NCBI RefSeq assembly: GCF_003545695.1
Contig: NZ_QUZZ01000006.1
Span: 1 to 64,000 of the forward strand
Length of the DNA stretch: 64,000 bases
Source: Taibaiella helva
GTDB taxonomy: Bacteria; Bacteroidota; Bacteroidia; Chitinophagales; Chitinophagaceae
Direction of reading: 5' to 3'
Below, one piece after another: positions 40,796 to 61,623 of the stretch (its first letter is position 1; each line of letters opens with the position of its first letter). The notes beneath the pieces are model-generated. The model did no database searches and was not told where the DNA came from. It saw only the letters and a program-made list of their open reading frames with translations. The translations under genes were made by a program, and so were the position numbers.

Positions 40796-40846
40796 CCCGT
40801 TAAGATTAGCCGAAATGCATTGCTTGCGCCGCCTGCACAGTAATGG

Positions 40847-41176
40847 TCATCGATGCATCAAAAAAATACCTTGTCCTGCCACCGCGGTAAAATAGATCGT
40901 ACCGGCGTAGCGAGCAGGAATGGAAGACACAAGGCCTGTTGTAAATGCAGGGAAGGTACTGACAATCGTAGGTGTAAGCACGATAGGCGGCTGAGGTCCT
41001 GGAATGCCACATTCCGGGGCCACCGTTGCGCCCTTCGGCAGGTTCTGGTATTGTATGACAAACCGGATCTCGCCGGCCTCCGGGCCTTGCTCATACAGCA
41101 TAATGCCATTGAGCTTGTTGGTGCCGTTGCCCCGCATCATGATCGAGTTCAGCACAGTTAATCCTTCAGGTCCCAT
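40847..41176 (-). CDS. Array gene 9: single-domain beta protein, frameshifted at its 3' end
   Basis: The 109-residue product consists of the shared array domain: YEQGPEAGEIRF, NLPKGATVAP, GPQPPIVLTPTIVSTFPAFTTG, IPARYAGTIYF. The open frame stops prematurely at 40847 just after GQGIFLMHR. The stop follows a run of seven A on the plus strand (40860-40866). One extra base there would join it to a frame reading FFDASMTITVQAAQAMHFG and ending at TAA 40806, which resembles the ends of the paralogues. So the true gene is probably 40806-41176. The ATG at 41176 is used; an in-frame TTG precedes it. Sequencing error, pseudogene and programmed slippage are all possible. Confidence 0.75.
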   Translation of the reverse strand: MGPEGLTVLNSIMMRGNGTNKLNGIMLYEQGPEAGEIRFVIQYQNLPKGATVAPECGIPGPQPPIVLTPTIVSTFPAFTTGLVSSIPARYAGTIYFTAVAGQGIFLMHR

Positions 41177-41240
41177 CAATAATGGTATTTAGATAATGTC
41201 GCGGCATTATCATAGTGAATGAAATGCGGATCCGGTCCGG

Positions 41241-41603
41241 CTATGCGCCCATCTCTGCGGGAAACATGGCCATCATCTGCATCCAGGCATCCGGCGGCAG
41301 CGTACCTTTCGGCACTACGGAGTAATAGATCGTACCGGCGAAATTGGCCGGGACATAGCTATGCATGCCGACAGAGAAATCAGGACCGGTAACCGGCGTC
41401 GGCTGGACTACGATCGGCGGCTGGGGACCCAGCTCAGGGCATTCAAAGGATACTTCGGAGCCCACGGGGATATTGTGGCATTTCAGCATAAAAAGAATTT
41501 CGGAGCCCACCGGCCCTTGTTCGTAGAGCATAGCCCTGGTTATCTTGTTTTCACCCTCTCCGAGGATGCACCTTTCGCTTTTGATGATTCTTTCGTTTTC
41601 CAT
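41241..41603 (-). CDS. Array gene 8: single-domain beta protein
   Basis: The 120-residue protein is made almost entirely of the shared domain: MLYEQGPVGSEILFMLKCHNIPVGSEV, GPQPPIVVQPTPVTGPDFSVGMHSYVPANFAGTIYYS. It ends in a Met-rich tail (WMQMMAMFPAEMGA). No signal peptide, membrane helix or catalytic motif is visible. It is a close relative of array gene 9 and of the C-terminal halves of genes 6 and 7. The frame opens to 41669 inside the neighbouring gene's stop region, but the ATG at 41603 is the plausible start. Function unknown; a small structural or binding protein is the simplest reading. Confidence 0.8.
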   Translation of the reverse strand: MENERIIKSERCILGEGENKITRAMLYEQGPVGSEILFMLKCHNIPVGSEVSFECPELGPQPPIVVQPTPVTGPDFSVGMHSYVPANFAGTIYYSVVPKGTLPPDAWMQMMAMFPAEMGA

Positions 41604-41668
41604 TGTTGTTTTTGATTTATCGTATAAAGGAAGAGGGCGGCTGTGGCCATAGACAGCCGCCCCGAACA

Positions 41669-42598
41669 TTAGTTAGTTGTGGTTACCGACGCCACGGTGA
41701 TCTGCTTTTTCGGCCCGCTACCGCTGCCTTCAAGATAAGAAGCGGTAAATACGATGCTGCTGTTGGCAGGCGGCGTATCCTTGGTATAAAAGCAGAAAGA
41801 GATATTACCCTTATAACCGGCCGGAACCTGCGTTACAATACCGTAAGATCCGTTGCCATCAGTAACTGTAGTTTTGTCGAGCTTGATCGGCGGATTGGGG
41901 CCGGTAGCATTGTCCGAATCAAAAGATACGGTAGTGCCCGATGGAATATTATTGCACTTCATGGAGAAGCTCATCTGCCTTGCGGTATCGCCCTGGTTAT
42001 AGGCAAAGGTGGTCTTCCAGCGTAGTGTAGGTGTCGGCGGCGGTGTGGGCTTGTCAATGACCACTTTTCTCCATCCGATCGTATTGTTGTCGGCTACATA
42101 TCGTTCAAAGTCTGTGATCCCGCTAAAATCGGGTTGTGTCCCTTCTGGCACGATAACACCGATCAGGCTGTAGGTAGCGCCATCCAGCGGATTGGGTGGC
42201 GTCCATACAAAAGGAAGCTCCGTTACCACTACAGTGCCCCTGCTCTGTGCGCTCACGCTGACGAATGGTTTACCATCTCTCGTTTGCAGTGCATTCTTTT
42301 CCCATAGTGCCGGATTGTTCAACTCCGTATCCTTGGCATAATACACATAAATATCGCCTTGCTGAAGCCCGGAGACCATGCTTTTTCCCCTTACATAGAT
42401 GTAGTTCAGCTGCTCTGCTTTGAGGTTCTGGTTTACATCCTTTTCATAGCTGTCCATAAAATACTTCAAGGGATTTTTCACCATTGTCGTACCGTTGGAG
42501 ATCACATCCGGCGAAGCAGAAACGTCGCCGGTACGGGGCAAAGTACCATCATCAGTAAGCGAAGCCCGGATCAGGATATCTATATTTTCAGTGCTCAT
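41669..42598 (-). CDS. Array gene 7: two-domain beta protein
   Basis: The 309-residue protein has an N-terminal domain of about 180 residues (SPDVISNGTTMVKNP, NYIYVRGKSM, YVYYAKDTELNNPALW, TELPFVWTPPNPLDGATYSLIGVIVP, NTIGWRKVVI). A proline-rich linker (KPTPPPTPT) follows, then the shared C-terminal domain (MKCNNIPSGTTVSF, GPNPPIKL, VPAGYKGNISFCFY). The NYIYVRGKN...LYY pattern resembles CARDB-type adhesive or structural beta domains; I cannot go further. No signal peptide. Paralogue of gene 6. Confidence 0.82.
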   Translation of the reverse strand: MSTENIDILIRASLTDDGTLPRTGDVSASPDVISNGTTMVKNPLKYFMDSYEKDVNQNLKAEQLNYIYVRGKSMVSGLQQGDIYVYYAKDTELNNPALWEKNALQTRDGKPFVSVSAQSRGTVVVTELPFVWTPPNPLDGATYSLIGVIVPEGTQPDFSGITDFERYVADNNTIGWRKVVIDKPTPPPTPTLRWKTTFAYNQGDTARQMSFSMKCNNIPSGTTVSFDSDNATGPNPPIKLDKTTVTDGNGSYGIVTQVPAGYKGNISFCFYTKDTPPANSSIVFTASYLEGSGSGPKKQITVASVTTTN

Positions 42599-42631
42599 AG
42601 TTTTATTGTTTTTGAACGAAAAATTTAAAGA

Positions 42632-43726
42632 TTAGTGTTTCCAGATATAATTCATTGCACCAACTACGATCAGGCGTTTAGGCCCTCCAAGTGCGATCAG
42701 CTGTTCCAGGTATTGATCATGATGGGACAGCAGCCTGGAAGAATCCCCCGAACGTTCCAGCTCTCTTTTGATACGGGCGTAGGCCTCATCAACAGTGGGA
42801 ATACCAAACTCAGAGGGAGCATGTGCATACTGAAACAGCTCGGTGCCGGGATTGGTGGGATAAGCGGTCTGGATATCGATGACAGCCTCGCTGAGATCGG
42901 TAACGCCCGGAGGCGCTTCCAGGTTGAAATAAATATCGCTGACATATCCTGCGGGCACATCACACACTACGCCGGTAGTAAAGCTCGGGAAGGTGGAAAC
43001 CTGGGTAGGTTCCAGGTAGATAGGTGGATTGGGCCCCGGCGCGCCAGCCGAAAAGGACACTTTAGTTCCTTTAGGCACGTTGGTACAAATAATCGTGAAT
43101 TGGATCTTACCCCCTTCAGTACCCTGCTCATAAAACTGCTGAACGCCGGTAAGCTTTACTGTGGTCGCATTGTTGACGATCACATTGCGCCAGGCAATAC
43201 CACCGTTCTTGGCCACCCAGCCGGCAAAATCAGAAATCTGCAAAGTATTGGGAATTTCATTATCGTATCCAGGAGAAGGCACCTTTGCGATCATACAGTA
43301 GTGATCATTGCTAATGTTATCGGGCTTCCAGATAAAGGGCTCCGAGGCCACGCCAATACCACCCGGATCGGCAACCATGGATACGGGGTTGTGCGTAGGT
43401 GTAGTTGTGATCTCGTTCCAGTTAGCGGGATAAGTAAGCAGGGAAGCTTTGGACCAGAACAGGCGGGGACGGTTGCCATCGGTATTGTCTTCGATCTTTT
43501 TGTCCGAAAAATTCTTGCCTCTCAGGTAAATATAATTCGGTGCTCCTGCGTCGAGCGCCTTGCCCGGGTCGCTGTTATAGTTATCCCTGAAAAAGACTTG
43601 TGGGTTGGACACCGGAGACAGGCCATAAGGAATAAGATCGGGTGAGGAGCTCAGCGCACCCGGTTTGGGAATGGTGTTGATCTGGCCAAGCGTGGACCGT
43701 AAAAAGATGCCATTGTAAGTTGCCAT
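42632..43726 (-). CDS. Array gene 6: two-domain beta protein
   Basis: The 364-residue paralogue of gene 7 has the same N-terminal domain (SPDLIPYGLSPVSNPQVFF, NYIYLRGKNFSD, LFWSKASLLTYPANW, SEPFIWKPDN, GGIAWRNVIV) and shared C-terminal domain (YEQGTEGGKIQF, NVPKGTKVSF, GPNPPIYLEPTQVSTFPSFTTG, VPAGYVSDIYF). It has an extra C-terminal helical tail of about 70 residues (DEAYARIKRELERSGDSSRL, YLEQLIALGGPKRL). The helical tail is unique in the group and could mediate assembly. Begins at an ATG, 55 bp after the kelch-protein stop. No known function. Confidence 0.82.
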   Translation of the reverse strand: MATYNGIFLRSTLGQINTIPKPGALSSSPDLIPYGLSPVSNPQVFFRDNYNSDPGKALDAGAPNYIYLRGKNFSDKKIEDNTDGNRPRLFWSKASLLTYPANWNEITTTPTHNPVSMVADPGGIGVASEPFIWKPDNISNDHYCMIAKVPSPGYDNEIPNTLQISDFAGWVAKNGGIAWRNVIVNNATTVKLTGVQQFYEQGTEGGKIQFTIICTNVPKGTKVSFSAGAPGPNPPIYLEPTQVSTFPSFTTGVVCDVPAGYVSDIYFNLEAPPGVTDLSEAVIDIQTAYPTNPGTELFQYAHAPSEFGIPTVDEAYARIKRELERSGDSSRLLSHHDQYLEQLIALGGPKRLIVVGAMNYIWKH

Positions 43727-43781
43727 AATGGTGAATTTTAATTGATGAAATAATTGCTATAGTATTACTGTAGATAAGTTC

Positions 43782-45827
43782 TTAAATGGAAGGTGTATAG
43801 GCCCATACATTCTGGTTGGCAGCGACACTATTCAGCAGAGCGCCGCCCAGGAACCAGAGTGCATCCTGGTATTCCACGCCCGCGGTATTCAGGATATCCT
43901 TCCACTGAAAGCCCCGCTGAGTGGTCCATTTGCTGTCGGAGCCCATGCGGTTCATATCATATAAGCCTTTCCTATCCGCGCCCAGGCCGCTACCCATATA
44001 GATACCGTTACTAAGCGTACCGGCCACCGGGTAATAACGGGGCGCCCAGCGTATATTGCTTTGGTTGATCCAGCTGGCGCCATCGGATGAGGACCATACT
44101 TCGTTGACCGGCTTGCCCGTCGTTTCGTTGCCGTTGATGAGGCCGCCCAGAATCCAGGCCTTGCTGTTATAGGTAACCACAGCGAAAGCGCATCTTCCGT
44201 TCTGGAAGGCCTGGCCGGTTACCTGGGTCCAGGTTTTGCCATCGGCGCTGCTCCACACGTCGGCCAGGCATTGATTGCTGCTGTTGATACCGCCAACGAT
44301 ATACATTTTTTCATTTAGCACAAAGCAGCCGAAGCTTCTGCGGGCAGACCACTGCGCCTGCCCTGTTTCCTGCGTCCAGGTTTTGCCGTCGCTGCTGCTC
44401 CACACATCGTTCAGGTAGCTGGCATCGGTACCTTGGCCGCCCATGAGCCACATTTTATCCTTGAATACAATGCCGGCAGCATAGCTGCGTGTCTGCCAGG
44501 GTATACTATTGGTTACGGGGATCCAGTTGTAGCCATCGAAAGAACGGTACACACTGTTCATATAATTGCTGGCCATCACCCATATCGCCGTATTGAAGTT
44601 GAGTACTACCGGCAGTTCAGGAAAGCCGAAAGGTGCACTGGAAGTAAACTGGTTCCAGCCCAGGGGCATTGGCAGCAGCTCTACGCTGCGCATGGCCATG
44701 CCCAGGCTGTTTTGCGCCATCAATGTGTAAGCCACGCCGGAGTTGGGAATAATGCTCAGGGCACCATTGCTCAGCTGGCTTTGATCGATGCCGTTGATTG
44801 TACCGTATTGTACGGTAGCGGTCACTGCCGAGCGTACATCCCAGGACAAAGCGATCGGTTCGCCGAGGCGGGCGCCGTAGCCCGGAGTAGCGGTAAAGGA
44901 ATTGATCACGACCGGATTAATGCTTACCGGCGCCGTTTTGTTGGCATACTCATTGCCTTTGTTGGCCGCAGTAAGAATAAACGTAGTCTCGTTCCATACC
45001 TGCACCTCCAGCTCGCCCTGTGCCGGCAGGTCTTTATGATCGCCGGGAGATATGGTGATCTTATCGGCGTAATTCACCTGCCATGTCAGCTTCACTTTGC
45101 TGCCGGCATCCACTTTGCCCGAAGAAACATCAAAGCTTTTGATCTCGGGCGAATTGACCGATACTGTGATCTGCTTCGAAACATTGGGGCCCTCTCCGTA
45201 AGCCGTAAGTGTGTACACCGTGCTCAGGCCCGGATTGACGGTGACCTGGTCGTTCGGCTTGATATCGGTAAAGTCGCCGGGAATAAGGGTTACCCTAGCC
45301 GCCGCTTCCGTGGTCCAGGATAAGACGCTGGCTGCGCCGGAGGCTACATAAGCCGGACTGGCATTGAAGCTGCTGACATCCAGCTTACTTTTGATCTTGA
45401 CCACCTGCTTGTTGTCTACCGGGAAAGAGCCATCACCGCTGTTCTCGGTGATGGGCAGGAAAACCGTACCATCCGCCTCGTTCACGATAATGTTCTGCAG
45501 CTGGAACGTAAGGCTCTCCCCGGGTCCTATGGTCGTATCAGCATCTATTGGCGTGGCCCGGTACAGCCCGTCATCCACCTGCTGAAAGTCCCAGGTCAGC
45601 GGTTGCAGCGATATGGGAACGATGGAAGAAGGGTTTGCTGTCAACGCATTTTTATCATCGACTTTATTGCTAACGGGCAGCTTGATCTGGAAACCGAGAA
45701 TGGCGATCGCCTCTTCGGTAGTATTGCTGGCCCCGATGGTCAGCAGCACGCGGGAAGGATTCAGCGCATCGCGTGTGTAGTACACACTGCCCGGCAGCAC
45801 GGTATAATTGAGTTTGGTGTCGCTCAT
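43782..45827 (-). CDS. Array gene 5: Ig-like domains plus kelch-type beta-propeller
   Basis: The 681-residue protein has an N-terminal beta domain (about 1-145). Three successive Ig-like/PKD-like domains follow (about 151-225, 228-305, 308-385), each with a SF.(A/V)(S/T)(P/S)G start and an LSW/LTW strand. A C-terminal kelch-like propeller (about 390-681) has repeated blades reading VWSS(S/A)DG(K/A)(T/S)W followed by a MxxxGG(I/L/Q) strand. Kelch propellers usually bind proteins or glycans. There is no signal peptide, unusual for a protein of this layout, which normally acts outside the cell. Starts 8 bp after the end of the 1209-residue gene. Confidence 0.87.
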   Translation of the reverse strand: MSDTKLNYTVLPGSVYYTRDALNPSRVLLTIGASNTTEEAIAILGFQIKLPVSNKVDDKNALTANPSSIVPISLQPLTWDFQQVDDGLYRATPIDADTTIGPGESLTFQLQNIIVNEADGTVFLPITENSGDGSFPVDNKQVVKIKSKLDVSSFNASPAYVASGAASVLSWTTEAAARVTLIPGDFTDIKPNDQVTVNPGLSTVYTLTAYGEGPNVSKQITVSVNSPEIKSFDVSSGKVDAGSKVKLTWQVNYADKITISPGDHKDLPAQGELEVQVWNETTFILTAANKGNEYANKTAPVSINPVVINSFTATPGYGARLGEPIALSWDVRSAVTATVQYGTINGIDQSQLSNGALSIIPNSGVAYTLMAQNSLGMAMRSVELLPMPLGWNQFTSSAPFGFPELPVVLNFNTAIWVMASNYMNSVYRSFDGYNWIPVTNSIPWQTRSYAAGIVFKDKMWLMGGQGTDASYLNDVWSSSDGKTWTQETGQAQWSARRSFGCFVLNEKMYIVGGINSSNQCLADVWSSADGKTWTQVTGQAFQNGRCAFAVVTYNSKAWILGGLINGNETTGKPVNEVWSSSDGASWINQSNIRWAPRYYPVAGTLSNGIYMGSGLGADRKGLYDMNRMGSDSKWTTQRGFQWKDILNTAGVEYQDALWFLGGALLNSVAANQNVWAYTPSI

Positions 45828-45835
45828 CGTTTGAA

Positions 45836-48800
45836 TTATTTTGAATCGTTGAGGGCATTGGATAATTTCAGCCAGCCATCCTTCAGCTCATAGCCGACGC
45901 CGATACGCGCTTTCTCATTGGCCTGCGCAATGGTAGTCAGCTCTTCCCAGGTAGTTACGCCGGTATGCTGTATCCAGGACCATTTACCGCTCATTTCCGA
46001 AGGCAGGGGCATGGACAGCTGGTCGGGATCGGTGATCAGCGGACCGGTACGGAAGGTCACGTTCATATTGCTCATGGCATTCTCTACCAACGTGCCGGGC
46101 AATACATTGAGCTGCACGGGGAGGATACCGGGAATCACATTGACATCACCACGGGGATCGACCAGCAGGAATACTTCCTTGGCAGGCTCTTTAAAGCTGA
46201 GCGCCACCGGTTCATTGGTAATGTAGCCCGAAGTCTTATCGATCTTGTCGGCCAGGATACTGTTAAAGGTGAGGAAGTCTTCCAGGAAATAGCCGATGGT
46301 ACCATCCTGAGGATCCTGCAGGCAACCGGTCTGTACCGGAAAGGCGATATCTTCATAGCCCCCGGTAACCTTCAGTGTCGAATCTTTCCAGTTCTGGCTG
46401 TACACCGGCGCGCCCATCAGGTTATAGTTCATCGCCGAGCGCACCAGGGCCAGCGGTCTGCCGATAAAGACGGAAATGAGCTCATTGTTGCGCCCTCCCA
46501 GGGGCTCTACAGTCCACAGGGTTTCGTCAATGATGGATAACAGGCTGCCGAAAGCTGCAGCGCTATCTTCTCTTGCCAGCAGGTTCGCTACAAAGCTGCG
46601 CAGGTAAGGATTGGGAATCACTTCTTCCAGCGGTGCGCCCACAGGGACATTCTTACCAGGCGCGTTGTCCCAGCGCAGCTGCATCCGGCTGAATGTTCCG
46701 GTAAGGATCAGCTCGCCCAGCAGATGTCCGTCCGGCGTGTAGAGCGAGAGGCCCTTATCGAGGTGATTGGGCAGCAACCAGCCGCATATGGGATCGGTCA
46801 TTTGGTTGATCTGACCACTGTCGTTGGTTTTACCATCTCCGGAAAGGAAGTTAAATTCGAAACGGGCGTTCTGCGTAACCCTGGGTGGCAGTTGTACGAG
46901 ATTGGGATTATTGGGCGTCACCATACCTGTACCGACCACCGGCTTGTAACCTGCCGGCTGCTGTCCTACCGCCGAAATGGGATCGAACACCTGCCCGAAG
47001 TCATCCACGACCCATAATTTGTTCAGCTGGAAATGCCCGGCGCGCACAGGATAATTTTTCACGCTCATGTCTGGCACAGGCGATAGCTGCGTCATATCGC
47101 CCACCAGGCTGTTCACATCGGCAGGCGCCTGGTTCAGCTGATCCGGGTTCAAGGCCAGCAGCAATTCATTCAGGCCGCTCATGCTCTGGGTCAGGAAGTC
47201 CCATTGGCTGACGGTATTAAGGAACTCCCGCAGATCGGGAAACTTACCGGTATCTTCAAAATACTTCTCCAGCTGGGCTTGCATTACGAAAGCGCTGTTG
47301 GGCGTAATGAGGCTGCTGCCGCTGATCGTAACGCTGTTGCCGGTTACGTTGTAGCGCTCGTCCCATACATATTCCAGGGCTTCCGCATCAAACTGCCACT
47401 TCTCCAATGCCTTCGAAGGCTCGTCGTAAGAAGGGAACCAGTTGATCTCCCAGGCCATATAGAGCGGCGCCCAGGGAGCAGCCCATAGCTGTACCGCCAC
47501 CTTTGAAGGAATGGTACCGATGAAGCCTGAGGCATCGGTCACCAGCTGCCGGTCTATATTGTAGATATCTGCATTCCATGCAGCAGTCTGCTGTGCCGCT
47601 ACATTATTGGCATAGGCAGCATCGTAGGGTATCTTCAATAGGTTGCAGGCCGCCTGCGCTATAGCAGGAGCATTCGAGGTATCGAAAAAGTAATTGTCGA
47701 TACAGATGCTGTTTGTCTCTTTGGGTACCAGGCCGTATGCGGGCAGGCTGACGGGCGGAAGCGTAACATTATCGCTCATCACCGGCTGTACTGGCTGGTT
47801 GGGCAACATTACCTGCAAACCGGTGATCGTTTGTCCCGTAAAACGGGTAAACAGGTGATCATCATCATCAAAGCGGCCGTCTTCTCCGTGGCGGTAAGCC
47901 CTGTGCGCGCCATAGATCAGGACTACCGGATCGTTAGCCTGGTGATAGCGGTTGCCCATGTTCTCCTTGAGCTCCTCTGTAGAAGGCAGACCTTCTTTCA
48001 CCTTTTCGATCAGGGCGGCGATTTCCGTATCGAGCTTCCGATTAGCGTCCTGGAGATCCGATACCAGCTGCTTATTGCCCGGGATCGCATTCTTCAGGTT
48101 GTCCTGGATCACTTTCCATTCCGCGGCCGAAATGCCCGCCGGCGGCTTACCCCAGTAAGTCCCCGATTTACCGGTCTTCCACCAGTTGCCATACAGGTCC
48201 GATTGGGCCGATTGCATCAGGTGCAGGTTAAGGTCACGTTCAGCCGCCTTCCGGTTCAGCGATACGAGGTCGGCGAGGCGCTCCGGCTTGATGAAAGGAT
48301 CTTCGGGCTTGTCCTTATCATCGATATAGTAATAATATTCGGCATCATGATTGCCGAACCAGGCCTTGAAAATTTCGCGGTACAGCTGGTACTGTCCGCC
48401 CTGCTCCTGGTATTTGGTCAGCAGGTTATAGTTGAAAGCTTCCAGCAGCTCTGCAGCGGCTTCCCCATTCTGCCCTTCAATGTCCAGCTCGAAAGCTACC
48501 AATGCGGCCAGCGCATCAATAGCCGTATTGGCCACGGCAATGCGGGGCTGCTTTTCAGCGGGCATGGAAGGATCGTATTGCGGTACGCCGCTTTGCGGAA
48601 CACCGTTCTGTCCCAGCCAGTTCACTTTGTAGACCATGCCCTGGCACAGCGTGCGTGAAGGGTAGAGGTCGCGGGCCTGGTCGGGATTCACCGTAATGTT
48701 GTTGGCTTTAGCCCAGGCCAGCCAATCGTTCACGGCCTTTTGCAGGTCGTTGTTGTCGCCTACGGTCCAGAGCAGGCTGTCCATCAGGGCCAGCCATTCA

Positions 48801-49465
48801 TCCAGCGTAGTAAAGTTATTGAGCGGATCGTCTGCTGCATTCCCGTACCAACCCATTACGGTATAGGTCACCGGGACTGCCTTGTCCACGATATCGCTCA
48901 TATCATCGTAGAAAGAAAATACATTATTGATATTGGCGGTATAGGCAGCAAATGCCGGATTGCCCGGGCCCAGCGCCATCAGGAACTGCTGCTGGCTTAC
49001 CCCTGCTTCTCCGGGCCATTGCGCAGCCGGCCACACCTTACCGATACGGGTCACTGTCGGCGTTGCGGCATCCGGCTTAAGAAAGAGATTGGCGCCGTCT
49101 TTCGGATCGAGATAATCGCTCTGCAGTATCCAGGATTTCGATTTCCCTTCATAGTAACGGATAATGAGCCAGCGGTTGGGCGCATAAGGATACCGGATCT
49201 GCTCGCCTTCCTGACGGCCATGAGTAATGCCGTCGGGAAGCGCCCAGTGTAGCGTAATGCCCACACCCGGCCGGTCGGCATCCTGGAACATTGAAGGCCG
49301 TACATTCTCAAATTTTCCGGCATTGTTGTATTTCATCCTGTTGTAGGCCCAGGGATAATTCAGCGAGAGCTTCGACACCACCAGTGCCTCTACATCCACA
49401 GGGACCAGCAGGGAGGGGCCGTTCCAGAGTAAAGGGTCTGCTGTATTCTTTGCCGCTTTTGCCAT
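45836..49465 (-). CDS. Array gene 4: 1209-residue protein, unknown
   Basis: A large soluble protein with no signal peptide or membrane segment. Visible landmarks are an N-terminal block GVGITLHWALPDGITHG (about 68-83) with YPYAPNRWLIIRYYEG, a charged helical stretch likely to be a coiled coil (about 480-515), and AHRAYRHGEDGRFDDDD. Others are a FFDTSNAPAIAQAACNLLKIPYD segment and a Pro/Gly-rich C-terminal half with VAVQLWAAPWAPLYMAWEINWFP. I do not recognise a catalytic motif. The W-rich, loop-rich composition suggests a beta-structured particle or binding component. Flanked by 27 bp upstream and 8 bp downstream, it is clearly part of the same transcription unit. Confidence 0.85.
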   Translation of the reverse strand: MAKAAKNTADPLLWNGPSLLVPVDVEALVVSKLSLNYPWAYNRMKYNNAGKFENVRPSMFQDADRPGVGITLHWALPDGITHGRQEGEQIRYPYAPNRWLIIRYYEGKSKSWILQSDYLDPKDGANLFLKPDAATPTVTRIGKVWPAAQWPGEAGVSQQQFLMALGPGNPAFAAYTANINNVFSFYDDMSDIVDKAVPVTYTVMGWYGNAADDPLNNFTTLDEWLALMDSLLWTVGDNNDLQKAVNDWLAWAKANNITVNPDQARDLYPSRTLCQGMVYKVNWLGQNGVPQSGVPQYDPSMPAEKQPRIAVANTAIDALAALVAFELDIEGQNGEAAAELLEAFNYNLLTKYQEQGGQYQLYREIFKAWFGNHDAEYYYYIDDKDKPEDPFIKPERLADLVSLNRKAAERDLNLHLMQSAQSDLYGNWWKTGKSGTYWGKPPAGISAAEWKVIQDNLKNAIPGNKQLVSDLQDANRKLDTEIAALIEKVKEGLPSTEELKENMGNRYHQANDPVVLIYGAHRAYRHGEDGRFDDDDHLFTRFTGQTITGLQVMLPNQPVQPVMSDNVTLPPVSLPAYGLVPKETNSICIDNYFFDTSNAPAIAQAACNLLKIPYDAAYANNVAAQQTAAWNADIYNIDRQLVTDASGFIGTIPSKVAVQLWAAPWAPLYMAWEINWFPSYDEPSKALEKWQFDAEALEYVWDERYNVTGNSVTISGSSLITPNSAFVMQAQLEKYFEDTGKFPDLREFLNTVSQWDFLTQSMSGLNELLLALNPDQLNQAPADVNSLVGDMTQLSPVPDMSVKNYPVRAGHFQLNKLWVVDDFGQVFDPISAVGQQPAGYKPVVGTGMVTPNNPNLVQLPPRVTQNARFEFNFLSGDGKTNDSGQINQMTDPICGWLLPNHLDKGLSLYTPDGHLLGELILTGTFSRMQLRWDNAPGKNVPVGAPLEEVIPNPYLRSFVANLLAREDSAAAFGSLLSIIDETLWTVEPLGGRNNELISVFIGRPLALVRSAMNYNLMGAPVYSQNWKDSTLKVTGGYEDIAFPVQTGCLQDPQDGTIGYFLEDFLTFNSILADKIDKTSGYITNEPVALSFKEPAKEVFLLVDPRGDVNVIPGILPVQLNVLPGTLVENAMSNMNVTFRTGPLITDPDQLSMPLPSEMSGKWSWIQHTGVTTWEELTTIAQANEKARIGVGYELKDGWLKLSNALNDSK

Positions 49466-49492
49466 GATCTTGTTTTTACCGTTGAAAGTGAT

Positions 49493-50443
49493 TTAATAGT
49501 CGGTGCAATCATTGGGATTGGGTTGCGTTTCCGCACCGCTCAGGAAAGATTGCTGCTCTGCCGATTTAATAAGCTGTATGCCGAAGTCGGCGGGCGAAAG
49601 TGTTCCGGAAGGGCCCATGGCGTTGTAACGGTTAAGCACTTTGACCAGCGCTGCTTTCGTTGCTGCTACGTCGATCACATTCTTTCCGCCGCTTCGCCGA
49701 ACCACCTCCGCTTCATCCTCCGGCTTAGGATTGCCGGTAACGAAAGTACCGACCGGCTGATCGGTATGATAACCCATAAAGCGCGGCACCAGCTTGCCGT
49801 CGCTGCGTACGCCGAAGGCCAGGCCTTCTTTCGGTTCGTTAAGCTGCACCAGCTTCGGCATCCTGCCATAGAGGCAAAGCATCACATCGGGCGCCAGGCG
49901 CTGGATACGCAGGTTCTCGATCTTGCCTACGGGTACGATGTTCTGATGGGAATCGATCGTATAGTCTTCGTAAGCGGCAATCTCCAATCCCGGCCAGCCC
50001 GACACCAGCTGCGAGCGCATCAGCAATCCCGAAACAGCAAGGCCTGTATTCAGCGCCTCAGGCAGCTCGGCATGAGCGAGCCTGCGGCGCACCAGCTGCA
50101 TCGAAGCCCGGAGGCTATGCTGTACTTCTTCATACACCGATTGGATCAATGCGGTGTCCCTTGAGGATTGTGCGCCTACGCTCAAAGCACCGTCCACCAG
50201 GCAGCTCGTCCAGTTGGGGTCGACATAGAAGAAACGGAGCGATTCCAGTGGTAACATCCCCGCATTGGGCACCAGGTGCTCAAAGGGCACACCGTAGAGC
50301 AGTGAGAGACTGCTCAGCCAGTTCTCCAGCGCCGGTGGCAAGACACTTTCCCGGAAATTCAGTGAAAGCCGTAATTGCTTTACCTGCGTAGTTCCTTTCA
50401 GCGCCGCGATATACTGGCCGGCCCCGGGCAAATTCTTTTTCAT
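49493..50443 (-). CDS. Array gene 3: 316-residue protein, unknown
   Basis: Soluble protein with a strongly patterned N-terminal third: WLSSLSLLYGVPFEHLVPN then MLPLESLRFFYVDPNW and LVDGALSVG (about 42-90). The second half has basic helices (ASMQLVRRRLAHAELP) and AYEDYTIDS. It ends in an Asn/Pro-rich tail. There is no recognised catalytic motif and no signal peptide. It begins 1 bp after the end of the 509-residue gene, so translation is likely coupled. Confidence 0.83.
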   Translation of the reverse strand: MKKNLPGAGQYIAALKGTTQVKQLRLSLNFRESVLPPALENWLSSLSLLYGVPFEHLVPNAGMLPLESLRFFYVDPNWTSCLVDGALSVGAQSSRDTALIQSVYEEVQHSLRASMQLVRRRLAHAELPEALNTGLAVSGLLMRSQLVSGWPGLEIAAYEDYTIDSHQNIVPVGKIENLRIQRLAPDVMLCLYGRMPKLVQLNEPKEGLAFGVRSDGKLVPRFMGYHTDQPVGTFVTGNPKPEDEAEVVRRSGGKNVIDVAATKAALVKVLNRYNAMGPSGTLSPADFGIQLIKSAEQQSFLSGAETQPNPNDCTDY

Positions 50444-50444
50444 A

Positions 50445-51974: not shown

Positions 51975-51999
51975 GATCGCTGGTTCGTTTGGAATCGGG

Positions 52000-54900
52000 T
52001 TAACGGGGTCCTATGGAAACTTTGGTACCGGAACCGGGCGTCGCCGTATAAGGATAAGGCAAGGCCGGCTGCAGCACGACCTGCTGCCAGTTCTCGGCGA
52101 CATAAGACAGATTCTGCGACAGGCCCATCACACCGGAAATGTAAGTATCCTCGTCAGAGGTGGTATAAACAATACGCGCATCATAACCGGTATCGGCCGG
52201 GAGGCTGAACAATACCGCTGCTTCATAAGCGCCGTCGATCACCTGCACCGGTACAAGATCCTGGTAGGCAGGGCCATCCGGCCTGATGATCTTAATGCGT
52301 GCCTTCAGCGAGGCCGGGTTGAGCGGTGTATTTTTCGATGGCTTCTTAGCCAGCACCGCCAGGGTGTTCACCTGCTGCGGCAATATAGTTCTGATACCAG
52401 CCGGTACGCTGCGGCCATCTGCAGTAACCAGGTTGTCAGCTACCATTGTCTGTCCCGAAAGGAGACCGAAAGCGCTGGAGTAACGCATGTATTTCACGCG
52501 TACCGGGCTGTCGGGGATCACGATCGCACCGATACCGGTTAAAGCATTCGGATTGACCAGGGTCAGCTGCGCTGTTACATGCCAGCCGAAGGCATAAGGC
52601 ATTTCCAGAGAAGCCATGCTGATGCCGCTCACATAAAGCTCCGCTACACCTTGAGGCAGGGCAATGCTTTCTGTCAGCACACGACTGCCCATAAGCTGGT
52701 TGTCGATATCAAACCAGGCCGCAAACACGGGCGTTTCGCCGCTGAGGCCGAGATAGGGCGCTGTGGCTTCGGGATCAAGATCGAGCAGCACGGCAACACC
52801 AGGAAAGAGCTCCAGCCCGGGTTGATCTGCATTTCCGGCGGCCCTCAGGCTGCGACCCTGAACTACAGCTTCCGTTTGCCACTGCGGCGTATTCTCGGCG
52901 CTGTACATTTTGCCTTTTACCGGGTGGATCATTTTTACCTCGCCGGGCGAAGCTGCCATAAACACCGGCGAAGGCAGGTCGGGACGGGAATACTGGGTCA
53001 TCACAGCCCTGATCTTGACCGGATCGGTAGCAAGAGCGGCAGCACGCGTTTGTACAGCCGGTGCAGCAACAGAACGGTTCAGCGTCCTGGCCTGCAGCCT
53101 TTGCGGCGCCTGCTGGTAACCCAGGCTACCCAGCGCACCCAGCATCGGGTACGATTGGAAAGTATCGCTGGCATACGCAGCCATCTGGTCCAGGCGGCCG
53201 TCAATGCCCACATTGATACCTGCGCCCACCACCGCTTCAAGAATAGCCGTACGCATAGCAACAACGGGGGTTGTCATAATGGTATCTTCGATCACTACCA
53301 ACGATTGATCGGACGGTGTCGCCGGTTGTGCGGGATGCAGCCGGGGATTGCTGGCGAGCGTAAGCTTGCGCCAGGCCCAGGCAGCATAGCCGAGATTAGA
53401 CAGAGGGAACATCGGCGGCCCGTCCTGCGGCAGATTGCCGCCGGATGCGGCGATCCGGGCCGTGAAGCCCACCAGCGCGCCGGGAATGATCTTGGCACTG
53501 ATCTCCGTCTTACCATTGTTCACCGTGCCCCACAGCGATTCGGGTATACCATTGGTATCACCGCTGATATCCCAGCCTGCCAGCTTGTCAAGAGGTGTAT
53601 CGTAATATTTAAACGCTATGCCAAGAGTAGATTTCTGGCCATCTTTGCCAAACACCACCGATCCCATGGGCCGCATGCCGAATTTGACATCACTGCTGAT
53701 GGGTATCTCCATACCGGTGATCGATATTTCATTAAGCGGAATAGCGGTGCTTACCGTAAAAGAAAAACCATCTGCGCCCACCTGCCACAGCACAGGGCTG
53801 GTGGCATTCACCTTGCTGTCCGGGTTGGGGAACTCTTTAATGAGGCCCGTAACCTGTTTGATATTAGTGACCTGCTGTACCGGTACTGTTTGTATATCAT
53901 TCGCTTTAAGCAATGCTCCCTTCTCCTCTTCTTCTGTAGGCTGCTGCTGTGGCGCGGTGGCCGGTGCTTTATCGGAAGGCAGGAAGTAAGGCTTGAATTC
54001 TTTCCAGTCGATAATACGTGTATCGTTGGGCTTCGTCTCCGTTGCGCCGAAGTTGACGGTAAAGGAGATCACCCACCAATGCACGGTTACGCTGCCGGCC
54101 ATCGGCGGTCCCCAGATGTGCACATCCGCGCCCAGCTCCACTTTGAAGGTCGTGGTCCAGATGAAATGCACCGTATAAGATGCGCCCACGCTGACCCCTA
54201 CCCTGATATCATAATAGAAGGGATTCCACATAATGAGGAAATCAGCATAGGCCGTGAACCAGGCTTTGAGGTTACCGCTTTGATAAACCGCTTCCAGGGA
54301 GCCACCCGCCATTACTGCGGAAGGCGTCAGTGCAAAATAAGCGCCACCCTTGATGCTCACATTGCCGCCTACAGCCCAACTGAAGCCCAGGCGGGGCTCG
54401 TCGGGATAATAAGCCGGCTTTTTAAAGGCAGGGTGATAGCCACCCAGCGTAAAGACGAAATCCCCTGCCCTGGCGCCGGTATCGGGCTGATCCTTGAACC
54501 AGACATAGAAGGCGAGGCCTCCCGTAAGCCGGCAATTGGGATCGATCACATAGGAATTGGAGGTAAGCACGGCTTCCATGGCCAGCAAGCCGGTAGATAC
54601 CTTATACGTTACTTTAAAAGCAATCTGCGCACCCACATAGGTCCGTCCCGTCTTGGGCAGCAACAGTCCGGAGATGCCCAGCAGGGCGATCTCAAAGTCG
54701 TTGCCGAAGATCACCATCAGCACGGCCTTAGAATCGATCAGCTCAAAGGAAGAGAACATGATTCCCGCCGCTACCCAATAGGAACCCAGCTTGGGCGGAA
54801 CGATCTTGGTACCCAGCGCCTGCAGGGCCTGTTCATTGGTCGGTGCCTTACCGCCAACGCCGCCCAGGGCCGCAGGATTTTGTATACCGGCCACGAAGGG

Positions 54901-57900
54901 GAAATTCTCGATCTGGTTGGCGGGCGGAATATTAATAGTACGGTTGTATCCGAAGCCTCCCGACAGCCCTTTGATAAAGAAGCAGGGCGGGCCGCCAAGG
55001 GGTGCATTCAGGTAGGCAAAAATGAATAGGGAAGGATGACCGTCGATCAGCGCATAGGCGCCGAAAGCGCCGATACCGAAGCTTGCGGTCTGTATCATTG
55101 CCTGGCCCGTGTACTGTATATAGCCCAGCGAATCATCTTTAAGGAAACCGCCGCCGATGGTGACGGCCCCTGCATTATACGAGACGTCAAGCCCGGCAAG
55201 ATCGAGCGAGTATTCTTTATAGTTGGTCGGATCGGTTATGGGAATACCGATATCGAGCTCGACCAGGTTGGCCATGAGCCCGGCCAGCGATACTTGTCCG
55301 TCGAAGAGGAAGTCAAGCCGTTTGGGATTTTTATCTCCTTTCCAGCCGATGCCCACCTTGCGGCATTGCAGCGGGCCGAAGGCACGCATCACGGATATCC
55401 ATACCTTATCGGTAGCCAGTCCATTGGCATCATACAGCTGCAGGTCGAAGGATTGTGCATTGTAGACATAAGCCGCCGATATGGAGAAGGAGGGATTAAT
55501 CGCATCCGTCTTACCGGGATTACCACCGGAGGTCAGCAGGTTCTGGGCCACCGGGTTCGTTTTGCTACCCTGGTTATCGAAACCGGGTCCCAGGGGTACG
55601 CCCAGGTTATACAACATCATGCCGGCGCCGAAGTCGGTACGCAGCTCACCGTTGAAATCAAGCGAAACGTAAGCCCGGGGTTCTATTGATTGTATGGTTA
55701 CCCCTTTGGTATTGATCAACGGGCTCTGGTCGTTGGCGCCTGCAAAATCAAGGCCCACACTGATAAGGTCAAATTTAGGCTGGAAGCTGAGCTCATCATC
55801 CTTACTGTTGCGGCTGATGAAGTAGACTACGAAACCGGGATCGCTTGTCAGCCCGGTCCAGTTATCGTCCTTCGTCTGGCTGCCATAGTATTTGCCGATC
55901 TGGAGCAGCAGCTTCGCCCCCTCACTGTTCAAAGAGCTGGTCACCTCTATATCCGTGATCTGTATCCGCAGGCCGTAGCGCTTCAGATCGCCCTCTGTCG
56001 AGCTTTGAACATAAATGCCGTGGTCTTTAATCGGCACCACACGCTGACCATCCAGCAGGTTAAGGGCTGAGAAGATCAGCTTGGTCACAATGCCGACGGG
56101 ATCGTTGACGTCGAAGGCGGTTCTCAGGTTGCATAGGTAGTAATTACCGTCCTGTTGCTGCAACAGGCCCCAGTCGGTAAGGATAATGCCCGGAGCGCCT
56201 TTAACGTTGCCTATGGTCGTCTCATTAAGCCAGTTCTTTACGGCCGCAACACCCAATGCCGTATTGGCCATAAAGGGAATAAGGAACTCCGTACCGAAAT
56301 TGACCATCCATTGGCTCAGCGTCACATTTGTTCGTCCTGTAATCAGGAGCGCCGGTGCAGGCAGTAAGCCAATGCGCAGGGTTCCTTCCGCATCAGACAC
56401 TTTAACCGGATAGCAATCCAGGAAAGGCCCCTGCATGCCCTGCAGGTTGCCCCTGAGGCCAAACAGCAAGGTCGGTTGGGGCGCATTGGGTATTTTAAAC
56501 GCGCTGAAATCGGTTCCCACCGCAATGTTCACTTCATAACGGAGATCAGGATTTTTGTAGTCGAAGGGCAAGGCAATACCGACACCGGTATGGTTCAAAC
56601 CCAGGGACATCCAGCTGAAAGCGGCTATAGGATTAAGCCACAGGCCGAAGACCTTTGTGCCTTCTATATCACGGATACCGATATCGATCAGTACTTTGGC
56701 AGATCCCAAGAGGTGCTCGTATTGCAGTATTTGCTTGTCTGTACTTAAGCTAAAGCCTTCCAGGGTGAGGATATCCGTAAGGAAATCGTTGATATTGGAT
56801 AGCGCCTGCGCAATGTTCGCTTCTGTGAACTGCCCCAGCGGGTCTTGATAAATCGCATTGAAGAAATTGAAGAGATCGGAGCCGCTCTTGATGCCGGTCA
56901 ACGTCTCAATACTTTGTACAAAGGGGATCAGGGCCGAGTCAGGGTGCGCCTTCGTATAAACATCGTAAGTACTGAACAGCTTATCGCCAATGATGGTCAG
57001 CAGTACACCGGCAGTACCTTCGTTCAGGAACTGGTTGAGGCCGCCGAAGGGCAGCAACAGAAACTCGGATTGGTTGGCTTTCGCGGTAAGGCTGAATTTA
57101 CGCTTCTCATAGGCGGCGATAATACCCAGGGTATTGCTATCGCCGAGCTTATAGCTCATTGCAATGCTACCGTCCACGTTGACACCGTTAGCTGTGCCGA
57201 ACGCCACACCCGCACCCAGGATAATATCCGGCGCAGGCGAGGGCAATGCCGGCCTGAAGCTGCCTTTCAGATTGGCGCCTTCCTCCCTGTTGGCAAACAA
57301 AGTAAAGGTAACGCCCCAAGGCAGGCCGGTCAGCTCAACCCCATCGTTCTTACCATCATGGCTGTACGCCTTCAGTGTTACATCGCCCACCTTAATGCCT
57401 GCCGCATCTGTGATCGCATACAGCAGGTTGCCCAGCCGGGTAAGGTCGACATTGCCTTGTCCGTCACCCAGTACTTCCGGTCCCAGCAGCCAGTCTGCGG
57501 GATTCATGAAAATACCGGTGAGGGGTACGATCTGCTCAGCACCTTCTACCGTAGTGGTCAATCCCAACACTTTGAAGATATTGTTTACGGCAGGGTTAGA
57601 CGGCACTACATATTCGTTCAGGTATTTGACCGCAAAAGAGCTGAGCAGGGTCATCGGCACCTGGTAGCCGATCTGGGCCAGGTACTTTTGGGTATCGGCA
57701 GGGAAAGGCCACAGCGGCAGCGGGGCGAAGGCCTGCGGCATACCCGGGATGCCGGTCAGATAAATACCATAATCATGGCTCAACTGGCCGTCTTTATAGC
57801 TGGGTGCATAGCGGAAGGTCAAAGCAGAATCCAGGGTACGGGAGCCCAGGGCCACACTATTGGTCAACGTATAAGAGTTCACATCAACCGCCACGCTGGC

Positions 57901-60900
57901 ATACAGCCGCAGCTCATCGCCGATCTTAAATATCGTATCGGTAGGGATCTGTACGGTCAGAATCTTACCGCTGGTATCGACGCTGAAATATTTCTCCAGT
58001 CCCGCGCCGGGTAAAGTGACCAGCTTGCTCACACTGGTCACCAATTGCTGGATCAGCGCGGGGCTGTTGAACAGGCTGCTAACACTTTGCTGCAAATAGC
58101 TTACCGGGTCTTTGAACAACGCCAGCCAATTGTTACATACCGGTACAAAATAGTTGTTATAGTCCTTAGCGAGATTCAGCGACTGTAGCAGGAACTGAAC
58201 GCCCTGCCAGGCCAGCGGCAGATCAAAATTATTGTAGCCCATCAGCTGCGCCAGCGATTGGATCAGCGCCGCGCACAGCTGATCGCTGTTCAGCACCGCC
58301 TCCACCTTTGTCATCAGGTAGCCGCCTGGGTTGGCCAGGATCGAAGCCCAGGCGCCGGGATTGAAAGCATATTCCTTTTGATTAGTGGCGTCCAGGCTTA
58401 CATCCAGCACGCCCAGCAGCCCCAGGATATCCAGCAGGGCCTGCAATTGAACAAAACCCTTTTGCTGCGCCGCTACCGACAATTCGTTCATCAGGGCGTT
58501 CAGCAAGGTATTGAATACGGCCATGGTATCGCTGCTCGTGAACTGCGGCTTGCCATCTACCGGGATCAGCTCTATATCCCTGAATATTTCATCCTTCCTC
58601 AGGCGGCTGCCCTGGAAGCGGAATACCGGGATCAGCTTCAGCTCGTTTTCCTGCAGCTGCAGGAAAACGCCCAGCTGCACTTTATTAATGATCAGCTCGT
58701 CGTTGATATCGACCAGCGGCAGGGTCACATCCGGATTCTGTATATTGGTCACCAGCGCGACACCGGGATAGGTCTTCACCGGCCCGGCAATGCCATCCAG
58801 GGTAACGCCCGGCACATCGGCCCGGAGAATGGTCGCGATCTGCACGCCTTCGGCGGCATCTACAGCAAATTGTTTCTGAACGCCCACACCCGTCTGGTTG
58901 TGCTCTTTCCAGGTCAGCAGATCGATATCGAATACATTGGGCAAGCTGACGATCCAGGGATCGGCCAAAGTCCCTATAGGCTGCACATCCGGCGCTCCCG
59001 GCGTTATGCCGGTAATGCCCCAGCCGATCACCTGCATCAGTGCGATCATGAATTCCTGGCTGTCATAAAGCTTGCTCAGCTGCGTAACAATATCCTTCCA
59101 GGGATTGCTGAAATTTTTGATCTCCAGCACCGGCCAGCCTTCAGGCAGGACCAGGTACTCCGGCACGGGGAAATTATACCCTTCATGCTTGTAGCCATCG
59201 AACACCTCGGGCAGGTTGGGCAGCAGGCCCAGGGCTATAGTAAGGCATACACCCACGGTTCCCCCGTTCTCTAACAGCAGCAATCCCAGGCCGTTGACAA
59301 TGGCAGGTGCGAATTGCTTCAGCTGATCAACGCTCCAGCCTGCCGTACTGAACTCAATATTGCCCAGGTCGATAGTGGTCGCGCTGGAAACCAGCTCCAG
59401 GCCATCGATACCGGCTTTTACAAAGAAGCTTTGCGTATTCTTCCAGCCGCCTTCGACATAGACATCAGCAACAGCAATGGACACACCACCGATTTCGGGC
59501 GTCTGCAACCGTTCCAGCGTTTTATCCTTGATCTGCAACCTGCCGGTAAGTGCCTGCATCCAGGCGGCATTCCAGGTACCCGAACCGTCATCGCCGGGCA
59601 GCTGCAATACCATCATCGCGGCATTGAGCTTAAAGGTGGCTGCCACTGCATCGATAGGCAAGGGCACAGTGAAGTCGAAAGCGATACCCAATTGCTCTTC
59701 GCCGGGCTTCCATATGGCGAGATTGATGGTTGCTGTACCGATCTCGAACAAAGGAATACGCCAGGGATCCAGTTCTGTCCCATCACCGGCTACCTCCGTA
59801 TTGTCGCTACCCAGCAAGGTAGAGAAGCCGGGGACAAGGTATTGGAATAAAGGTCGGCCTTCCGCATCGTCCGTGCTGAGGCAGCGGGAGTAATAAGCGC
59901 CCAGGGCCGCAAAGGGATTTTTTATCAGCAGCGACAGCTCCAGCGGCGACAGCAACATTTTATCCTTGAGCGGCCATTCGCCCTCATAGCTTTTCGGCGG
60001 GTCGATGCCCAGTACGGCAGTAAGCGCTTCAGCATAAGCGTTGTCTTCGCCGAAGAAAGTCTTGATCGCGCTGCTTACAACCGGTCCGATGGCCTTTTGT
60101 AAGGTATCCACGTTAAAGTTGGAAAGATCGATCAGCGGCCAGGCGCCTATTCCGGTCTGTACCTCCACCAGCCGGAAATTAGGGCTGGGAACTTTGCTCG
60201 TAGCAACCACGGCATCATACACAAAACCGACTTCCATCCGGCCGATGCTGAAGCCTGCTGGATTGTCGCCCTGCGTCTCATCGTCCAGGGCATCGGCAAC
60301 GGCAAACAAAGGTTTGCCGGCGACGGTATTGGCCGCAGAAGCCATGATGCTGTATTGCGGGAAGAAACTGATCGTATTGGATTTTCCCTCGCCACGTATC
60401 TTGTAGCAAAGCACTTCGGCCGCGGCCAGCACCTGGACGCCGAATTCCGGCAGGCTGCTCACCGGTGTAATGGGCGAAGTGCTGATGCTGAAGCCGGGAT
60501 AAAGCTGCAGCTCGCCTTCCGGGGTTTTTACCGTAGCAAAGCTTAAGTTGAACAGCACGGAAAGGTCTTTCCCGAAATCGAAGGTAAGCAGGTTGGCCGT
60601 CAGCGGATCGATACGCGTACCCGTACCGGTTACATAATTTTTATCTTCGGTAGCTTCCAGTCCTTTGAAGAGACAATACCAGTCATTGAGCCAGGATTTC
60701 AATATCGCCTGATCGCTGCTGATGTTCTGTAACCAGGTGGTAAAGATCGACACCACCTTCGAGGGATCTTTGACCAGCGCATCCCAATCGATACCAGGCA
60801 CGGGTCCCAGCAGGCCCAGCAGCTCCATCAGCGAATGGATCATCTTACCGGCAGTTTGCGCCACGCCTTCCAGCTGCGACAGCTGGCTGCCCAGCACAGA

Positions 60901-61623
60901 AAGCGCTACCGTAATGCTCTGCTGCACCGAAGCGTTATGGATAAGATCAAACAGGGAGCGGTTACTTCCTTGCTTTTCCCCCGGCAGCTTCAGGTTAAGG
61001 AAGCACAAGTCTAGCGAAGGATACAGGCCTTCGGCGAAGAAGATCTTACTCGCAGCCATAAAGCCGTCGAAAGACAGGCTGGCCAGGCCGTTGCCCGTAT
61101 TGAACACGCCATCGGCCCCGGTAATGTTGATCCCCGTCTCAACGGGATGATCTTTCTGACCGAGAATAAATGCAAAGCTCCCGCCGGCTTTAGCAGGCAG
61201 GCTGAGCACAGGGAAATAGGCAAAAGGAAGAATGGAAAAGTTATCGTACTGCCAATCATAAAGGCCGCCCAGGCCCAGCTCCGTAGGAATACCATCGACC
61301 GGCTTGCTCGCTACAATATAAACGCCGGTGGGTTTAGGCGGTTCGCCGTTCCGGGTAATAGGATTCAGTATCGGGTACCAGGTACGGTTCATGGCTTCCC
61401 GTGGTGTGCCGAGAGCATCACCGCCGGCGCTGCCCATCAGGGTAGCCAGCAGTTCAAACAGCTCAGGATTGGAGGGAATAGCGCTGATATAGGACCAGGG
61501 ATCGCTGAACCAGCTGCTGTTGAAGCTATAGCTGTCTTTCTCCTTGATGAATAACCCGATCAGTGTCCCGATCTGCATTGCTATCGGGTTGATCGCATTG
61601 GGGCCTATAGTTGTGGTCGTCAT
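52000..61623 (-). CDS. Array gene 1: giant 3207-residue DUF6603-like protein
   Basis: The largest gene in the window, with no signal peptide. Three internal repeats begin with a GTxxxDP(L/W) motif near residues 333 (GTGTRIDPL), 613 (GDGTELDPW) and 883 (IGTLADPW), about 275 residues apart, each followed by an amphipathic beta-rich unit. The region near 2130-2560 carries features I associate with DUF6603 ([57 protein letters not shown]). The C-terminus is beta-rich. Composition is dominated by alternating glycine/hydrophobic strands with occasional helical spacers, suggestive of a very long beta-structured or barrel-like assembly, but with no export signal. The ATG at 61623 is used; the frame continues 22 codons upstream to 61689 with no better start. 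Function unknown. Confidence 0.88.

Follow-up and report, generated by a model that had tools for sequence, protein, structure and literature searches.

The window analysed here is a stretch of 64,000 nucleotides from Taibaiella helva (contig NZ_QUZZ01000006.1, positions 1 to 64,000; host genome 4.82 Mb). It carries an array of nine minus-strand genes at 40847-61623. Four of these, which encode the giant DUF6603 protein G (P0009) and the protein families A (P0008), B (P0007) and C (P0006), nearly certainly form a system. The remaining genes encode protein D (P0005) and the small paralogues P0004, P0003, P0002 and P0011. An earlier reading of the sequence, referred to below as the original prediction, had called the array a candidate undescribed system. 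This is supported by the presence of G, A, B and C together across many phyla, mostly in the same order, and by the co-occurrence of A and G in two sets of genomes.

A conserved four-gene core

A genome scan for the A family gave 128 confirmed relatives, of which the best 80 loci were kept; A is present in these loci by construction. B was found in all 80, either on its own or fused to A; C and G were each found in 75, and all four members together in 72. The plain gene order was displayed by 69 of the 80 loci, as G-A-B-C in 36 and as G-AB-C in 33. The other 11 include one locus with a split G, one with the order AB-C-G, one with C-G-AB, and eight in which a member is absent from the stretch covered; in one of these eight, from Terrimonas, G lies further downstream. 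The best 80 loci belong to Bacteroidota, Actinomycetota, Pseudomonadota, Bacillota, Cyanobacteriota, Acidobacteriota, Chlorobiota, Nitrospirota, Verrucomicrobiota, Fibrobacterota, Zixibacteria, Thermodesulfobacteriota and the SAR324 cluster.

Since the 80 loci were found through A, whole genomes were tested as well, in two sets that, unlike these loci, were assembled without regard to the system. Among 395 Bacteroidota genomes (T. helva included), A was detected in 9 and DUF6603 in 17, in 16 of them above the Pfam cut-off. DUF6603 was present in all nine genomes with A and in 8 of the 386 genomes without it, one of these eight being the match below the cut-off (Fisher p 4e-14; 1e-12 without the T. 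helva genome). Among 299 Pseudomonadota genomes, A and DUF6603 were each identified in nine, and these are the same nine genomes (p 7e-16, leaving out the one centre genome known beforehand). The distance from A to DUF6603 is 0.6-2.0 kb in the Bacteroidota and 0.7-2.1 kb in the Pseudomonadota (all 18 genomes). Given the results from both sets, the reading as a system passes the co-occurrence test for G and A.

The original prediction was to be given up if homologues of the array genes were never found together in other genomes. They were found together, G and A directly, and B and C via the 80 loci. There is next to no chance that the array is no system and consists of unrelated genes standing side by side. 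Such a view may appeal to the fact that most of the proteins are unnamed and that no function ties them by name, but it is refuted for G, A, B and C by the co-occurrence in Bacteroidota and Pseudomonadota and by the order in the 80 loci. A chance cluster is ruled out also by the full cores in 72 of the 80 loci.

The nearest named relative at the array locus is Taibaiella koreensis (86% identity in A). The ratio of nonsynonymous to synonymous changes (dN/dS) between the two species is 0.04-0.13 for all nine array genes; these values are rough, as synonymous differences of 0.56-0.71 per site are near saturation, and their order of magnitude alone is meaningful. They indicate that the array genes are under purifying selection.

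Organization of the array in T. helva

The nine same-strand genes with gaps of 1-65 bp that had been described were all recovered; the individual gaps are 25, 1, 27, 8, 55, 33, 65 and 61 bp, with 41603 taken as the start of P0002. The array and its immediate surroundings include the following features.

52000..61623, minus strand: G, giant protein of 3207 amino acids (aa) with DUF6603; core DNA at about 53917-55386, and 53110-55437 modelled
50445..51974, minus strand: A, 509 aa, core family without a library match
49493..50443, minus strand: B, 316 aa, core family, predicted partner of A
45836..49465, minus strand: C, 1209 aa, core family without a library match
43782..45827, minus strand: D (P0005), 681 aa; residues 147-262 similar to a phage virion structural family; kelch propeller at the C-terminus
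42632..43726, minus strand: P0004, 364 aa, two-domain paralogue with a C-terminal extension of its own
41669..42598, minus strand: P0003, 309 aa, two-domain paralogue
41241..41603, minus strand: P0002, second-domain-only paralogue; start likely at 41603
40847..41179, minus strand: P0011, second-domain-only paralogue, 110 aa, TTG start
40756..40793, minus strand: GC-rich hairpin with a T-rich run after it, terminator-like, at the close of the array; read from the letters
61946..61969, between P0010 and G: GC-rich hairpin, placed on the plus strand by the hairpin scanner
61998..63947, minus strand: P0010, upstream of the array; no Pfam match; dN/dS 0.06

In array order, the proteins comprise 3207, 509, 316, 1209, 681, 364, 309, about 120 and 110 aa, and the claim that they descend in size from giant to very small was wrong. 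For P0002, the start at 41603 is favoured over that of the longest open reading frame (ORF; 41669), because the longer frame would include an intergenic hairpin. The frame of P0011 breaks near a T7 run at about 40865, and matching C-terminal letters go on in another frame to 40806; its counterpart in T. koreensis is an open 126-aa frame. The break could be real or a homopolymer error of the assembly. The end of the array, previously put at 40806, lies in this other frame, and the ninth gene ends at 40847. A 68-aa ORF at 40806-41012 (P0001) was rejected as a separate gene.

The terminator said to close the array was identified as the GC-rich hairpin and T-rich run at about 40793-40756, which the hairpin scanner (loops up to 8) does not list. 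A GC-rich hairpin also lies upstream, where another terminator had been claimed; the scanner places it on the plus strand. According to a simple hydrophobicity rule, the array proteins of the window have no signal peptide, as had been stated, except that C has a hydrophobic N-terminal strand, which is conserved within the C family. Searches of eight array proteins (P0002-P0009) against Pfam and NCBIfam revealed no enzyme family, in agreement with the first reading, in which no enzyme active site was evident. The Pfam labels were DUF6603 in G and kelch in D, both expected, and nothing else; the CARDB-like label received no Pfam support.

Elsewhere in the window, at about 27800-36500, the ORF sizes resemble those at 11174-19846 of the T. 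koreensis locus (L021), a region adjoining the array there. By eye, the T. koreensis region looks like a fatty-acid-synthase-type pigment cluster (ketoacyl synthase, dehydratase, acyl carrier protein).

Families A, B and C

No match better than chance was found for A, B or C in Pfam, NCBIfam, PADLOC or PDB. In PDB, the A profile and the single sequence of C (P0006) gave nothing at E 1, and the B profile gave three chance-level matches (best E 0.33). The sole PHROG match among the three families, that of A, is at chance level as well (E 0.058).

In 41 of the 80 loci, A and B are fused into a single protein. The model of a fused A-B protein had a predicted TM score (pTM) of 0.80, and several of its Ig-like fold matches span the A half into the B half; the predicted fold seems to join A and B. 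G and A are separated by a median of 3 nt, and B and C by a median of -4 nt (74 pairs in each case, with ORF starts unrefined). The A-B fusion, the joint predicted fold, the close or overlapping gene ends and an upstream gene fused into G (see below) make the proposed large multi-subunit assembly or particle plausible; the argument from size order that had accompanied this proposal falls away.

The giant protein G

The DUF6603 assignment of the giant is certain. The domain (PF20248) covers residues 2102-2590 of the 3229-aa ORF, with 483.5 bits against a cut-off of 27 (E 9e-145). The original length of 3207 residues holds if the start is at 61623, which is supported by homologues; the longest ORF starts at 61689 and encodes 3229 aa. 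DUF6603 is a family of unknown function and the giant is one of its members. Among open-licence PMC papers, none was found that names DUF6603 or PF20248, and literature searches on the system, the partners A, B and C or the hydrolase link found nothing.

The conserved core of G extends over residues about 2090-2855 of the 3229-aa ORF. In the model it consists of 26 mostly amphipathic strands with a face of L, I, V, A and F. The profile of this core gave nothing at E 1 in PDB. Two of 70 G proteins pass the hydrophobicity rule for signal peptides, and the window giant fails it.

In five loci (L110, L113, L116, L117 and L119), a separate gene of 371-410 aa upstream of G is the counterpart of an internal region of mid-sized G proteins, which points to fission or fusion within the system. 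The 390-aa upstream gene of short-G loci matches G (hhalign probability 95.6). The more general idea that all small and mid-sized upstream genes of short-G loci are parts of G was rejected, as it held for the 390-aa gene only and failed for a 160-aa gene. The N-terminal part of the giant was matched by neither of the two in hhalign comparisons.

Upstream hydrolases in related loci

The main functional clue was closed to a reader of the array alone, because swappable hydrolases occur in relatives and are absent from the window copy. The 80 loci have 95 listed ORFs upstream of the core, of which many are probably not real genes. Pfam was applied to 38 proteins, namely plausible upstream ORFs including six lipase pieces cut by the locus end, together with a trimmed ORF piece 2 kb before G in L068 and two genes downstream of D (L043 and L088). 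The matches were to Exo_endo_phos (EEP, DNase I-like fold, 8 proteins), Lipase_3 (7), calpain C2 (3), metallo-beta-lactamase (2) and Peptidase_M91 (2), a total of 22 of 38 on the assumption that no protein matches two families. BLAST clustering placed 29 of the 38 in enzyme clusters: EEP (11), lipase (7), metallo-beta-lactamase (5), calpain (3) and M91-like (3). The families of these clusters were assigned from motifs and the Pfam counts, and two of the five metallo-beta-lactamases lie downstream of D. At least four of five EEP motifs were recognized in 8 of the 38 proteins by a rough search. The hydrolase gene is located directly before G, or before one or two small G-related genes.

Enzyme types were mapped on a quick tree of A (80 rows). 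For 33 loci with 5 types, the labels of which were set partly by eye, 7 changes are needed; the least possible number is 4, and shuffled labels gave a mean of 17.9 and a lowest value of 14. This pattern indicates that enzyme type mostly follows lineage, yet has been exchanged.

One group of loci, the long type (L025/L026/L059, L047/L138, L053/L139, L058/L140, L060/L141, and also L050, L052 and L054), has a class 3 lipase before G, and in several of them (L026, L139-L141) Gly-rich collagen-like proteins precede the lipase. Full-length class 3 lipases before G were confirmed in three extended long-type loci. A polyketide synthase (PKS)-like gene follows D; it was checked with Pfam in L025 only and is recognized in the others by similar N-termini.

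Downstream binding domains and small paralogues

Downstream of the core, 143 ORFs were listed in the 80 loci and 50 proteins, D of the window included, were scanned. Pfam identified kelch in 7 (window included), phage tail collar in 6, Fib_succ_major in 4, and other propellers in several. One of the D proteins with a collar has matches to phage tail-fibre families as well. The place that D holds in the window is taken in other loci by variable binding domains of the kelch, phage tail collar, FISUMP or propeller type. In the window, residues 147-262 of D resemble the phage virion structural family phrog_2155 (E 8.5e-10). Proteins farther downstream in L048, L056, L064, L101 and L102 have, by eye, secreted-type starts.

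The four paralogues of one small beta domain were correctly recognized in the original prediction: a profile including P0003 and P0004 has four matches in the T. helva genome, all in the array. Against PDB, this profile gave nothing at E 1. Weak NCBIfam matches, far below cut-off, were to a fimbria assembly protein for P0003 (E 0.031) and to a BamI-type protein for P0005 (E 3.5e-5). Relatives of P0003/P0004 were detected in 13 of the 395 Bacteroidota genomes, three of them with A; several of the others are weak matches in larger ORFs. One relative is encoded inside the operon of a Chlorobiaceae copy (L163). A P0003-like protein (29% identity) is also encoded on a viral contig that has terminase and portal genes (L156, 7992-9041), so a phage, too, may employ the P0003/P0004 module.

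The window subtype

The window copy groups in the A tree with those of T. koreensis, a Mucilaginibacter metagenome-assembled genome and Aquimarina muelleri. These copies have in common the giant G (61-86% identity to that of the window), the pair P0003/P0004 and a D that is 681-686 aa long. Upstream of G are P0010 in the two Taibaiella genomes, unrelated genes in Mucilaginibacter and, by eye, a transposase-like ORF in Aquimarina. P0010 precedes the array in both Taibaiella genomes and has, by eye, what we take to be a lipoprotein-like start and one CxxCH motif. It was examined as a candidate for the missing cargo. Of the four copies of the subtype, only the two Taibaiella have it upstream, and the arrays of Mucilaginibacter and Aquimarina have no near relative of it as a neighbour.

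A second class of DUF6603 loci

DUF6603 was detected in 15 of 147 genomes (T. helva included), at 18 places outside the T. helva genome. Surroundings were read for 16 of these; the other two are fragments at contig ends. A neighbourhood of the A/B/C type (class A) was identified at eight places, one of which (L038) was assigned via a B-like 779-aa protein and C. The other eight (L027, L028, L029, L030, L033, L035, L037 and L039) form class B. They consist of a short G, a protein of 985-1105 aa, a protein of 1450-2421 aa and, in five of the eight, a protein of 574-929 aa; in the remaining three, this last protein is incomplete or short.

In profile comparisons, the second protein of class B matches A (probability 91.6, E 8e-7; columns 64-289 against columns 84-319 of A). 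It had no match to B or C; nor did the third or fourth protein match A, B or C. DUF6603 and an A-like domain seem to be the heart common to both classes. Enzyme genes upstream of class B include subtilases (L027, L029) and a PhoD-like phosphatase (L039), and an M64 peptidase is encoded three genes before G in L037. Nal1-type proteins upstream were matched below the cut-off in L033 and above it in L035. The directly adjacent upstream genes of L030 and L037 had no library match.

Distribution and mobile elements

The 17 Actinomycetota rows of the A tree form one clade. Label changes on well-supported branches number at least five for the 24 Bacteroidota rows and at least six for the 15 Pseudomonadota rows. 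The tree fits old subtypes, horizontal transfer or both. Relatives of A were found on 8 of 72,556 plasmid records and on none of 50,697 phage records, and a pattern scan confirmed none on viral contigs. Given this absence of A from phage records and viral contigs, a phage or prophage was rejected.

The Paenibacillus polymyxa plasmid p-YT9A (L165) contains, at 13611-18606, two genes annotated as 'phage baseplate assembly protein V', accompanied by pentapeptide-repeat and nuclease genes. They end about 9 kb before the DUF6603 and A-type genes of this plasmid.

Possible function

The reading we favour is that of a large enzyme-carrying complex with receptor-binding subunits, the core of which is made without signal peptides; we regard it as quite possible, though short of probable. 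A more specific version can be offered as a tentative conjecture: the system may be a new delivery machine, unrelated to contractile tails, Tc toxins and secretion systems. A released giant-protein complex of the A-B unit, C and a membrane-inserting G would carry an interchangeable hydrolase to target cells chosen by the propeller, collar or FISUMP subunits, in many phyla and in at least two classes sharing DUF6603 and an A-like domain. In the favoured reading itself, A and B would form one unit and would assemble in the cytoplasm, together with C and the amphipathic beta-strand protein G, into a large complex. Its binding or display subunits would be D and the small beta paralogues, and the hydrolase encoded upstream of G in many relatives would be the interchangeable enzyme carried. 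The complex would be released or displayed by some route and bring the enzyme to its target, with G as the putative membrane- or lipid-contacting part. Having no upstream hydrolase, the window subtype may act otherwise: through binding, through G on its own, or together with an enzyme from another part of the genome. The favoured reading draws on the order and co-occurrence of the core, the A-B fusion and its model, the hydrolases upstream in both classes, the binding domains downstream, the amphipathic strands of G and the P0003-like protein on a viral contig; assembly, release, target binding and delivery are inferred.

Several observations weigh against enzyme delivery. A release route is needed because the core is made without signal peptides, and none was seen. 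Fold matches of the G core are weak (best E 5e-4, TM 0.15-0.16, root-mean-square deviation 10-14 on second look), and 9 of the 38 scanned proteins belong to none of the enzyme clusters. Because enzyme type mostly follows the A tree, swapping appears slow for a toxin arms race. Finally, none of the four subtype copies has a hydrolase directly upstream, which weakens the reading for the window copy.

Some of the same evidence may be read as pointing to a particle that carries lipids or polyketides, a somewhat unlikely alternative. G would wrap lipids via the hydrophobic faces of its strands, like an apolipoprotein or a lipid-transfer protein, and this lipid would be the substrate of the lipase or of the EEP enzyme, which is possibly a phosphodiesterase. 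The amphipathic strands with their L/I/V/A/F face, the appearance of ApoB100 among the weak fold matches of the G core, and the class 3 lipase upstream in the long type are consistent with this, as is the PKS adjoining the long type in Chitinophaga, with PKS-like ORFs near others by eye. However, the PKS was library-checked in one locus only, and the protease, calpain and beta-lactamase-fold enzymes of other loci misfit a lipid theme. We consider it fairly unlikely that the system is a surface or matrix adhesion complex, in which the Ig, kelch, collar, FISUMP and collagen-like proteins would make up an extracellular coat and the hydrolases would be anchored exoenzymes. Adhesive-type domains downstream, Gly-rich repeat proteins in long-type loci, the collar resembling phage tail fibres and the secreted-looking starts of some downstream proteins (by eye) agree with such a coat, but A, B and nearly all G proteins lack signal peptides, and the core is common to phyla with quite different envelopes.

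It is improbable that the system serves intracellular defence or self-killing in response to phages or plasmids, in which the hydrolase would do the killing. Such a role would account for a core without export signals, for the interchangeable nuclease-like and protease genes and for the patchy distribution. However, PADLOC models matched none of nine window proteins, Pfam detected no ATPase, sensor or regulator family in the array proteins scanned, and tail-collar and kelch modules are ill-suited to this role.

Four families, two of them often fused, stay together across much of bacterial diversity, flanked by exchangeable enzymes at one end and by exchangeable binding domains at the other. 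As no description of them was found, they suggest a whole kind of machine that has been overlooked for want of names for its parts. Delivery of enzymes without a contractile tail would make it a new means by which bacteria affect other cells; carriage of lipids would make it the bacterial equivalent of lipoprotein particles. Both readings are testable in culturable environmental Pedobacter, Chitinophaga and Streptomyces.

Comparison with known systems

The system is not filed under extracellular contractile injection systems (eCIS), Tc toxins or known defence systems, as the tested features of these fail. A signal peptide, as expected of an outer-membrane beta barrel, is lacking in the window giant by the hydrophobicity rule, which only 2 of the 70 G proteins pass. 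In polymorphic toxin systems, the toxins are C-terminal tips of a carrier and an immunity protein adjoins them. The system studied here resembles these in that several unrelated toxin-type enzyme folds occur in one part of the operon, in relatives and not in the window copy, but the enzymes are encoded by separate genes and are not C-terminal tips of one carrier. Tc toxin complexes include very large proteins, several subunits and binding domains. The array system is similar in these respects, but no Tc or RHS family match was detected by Pfam in P0002-P0010.

The statement that this is no standard contractile injection system held within the searches made. Sheath, tube, baseplate, spike, DUF4255, AAA and DUF4157 were not found by Pfam in P0002-P0010, and the phage sheath PF04984 was not found in the whole genome, with 3 of 14 control genomes positive. 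A contractile injection system was rejected on these grounds. The feature list was taken from an account of eCIS (PMC8213781), which describes them as widespread and environmental, with variable enzymes beside a fixed core and fibre-like binding domains. In these respects the two are alike: the array system is also widespread and environmental, and it combines variable enzymes next to a fixed core with fibre-like binding domains.

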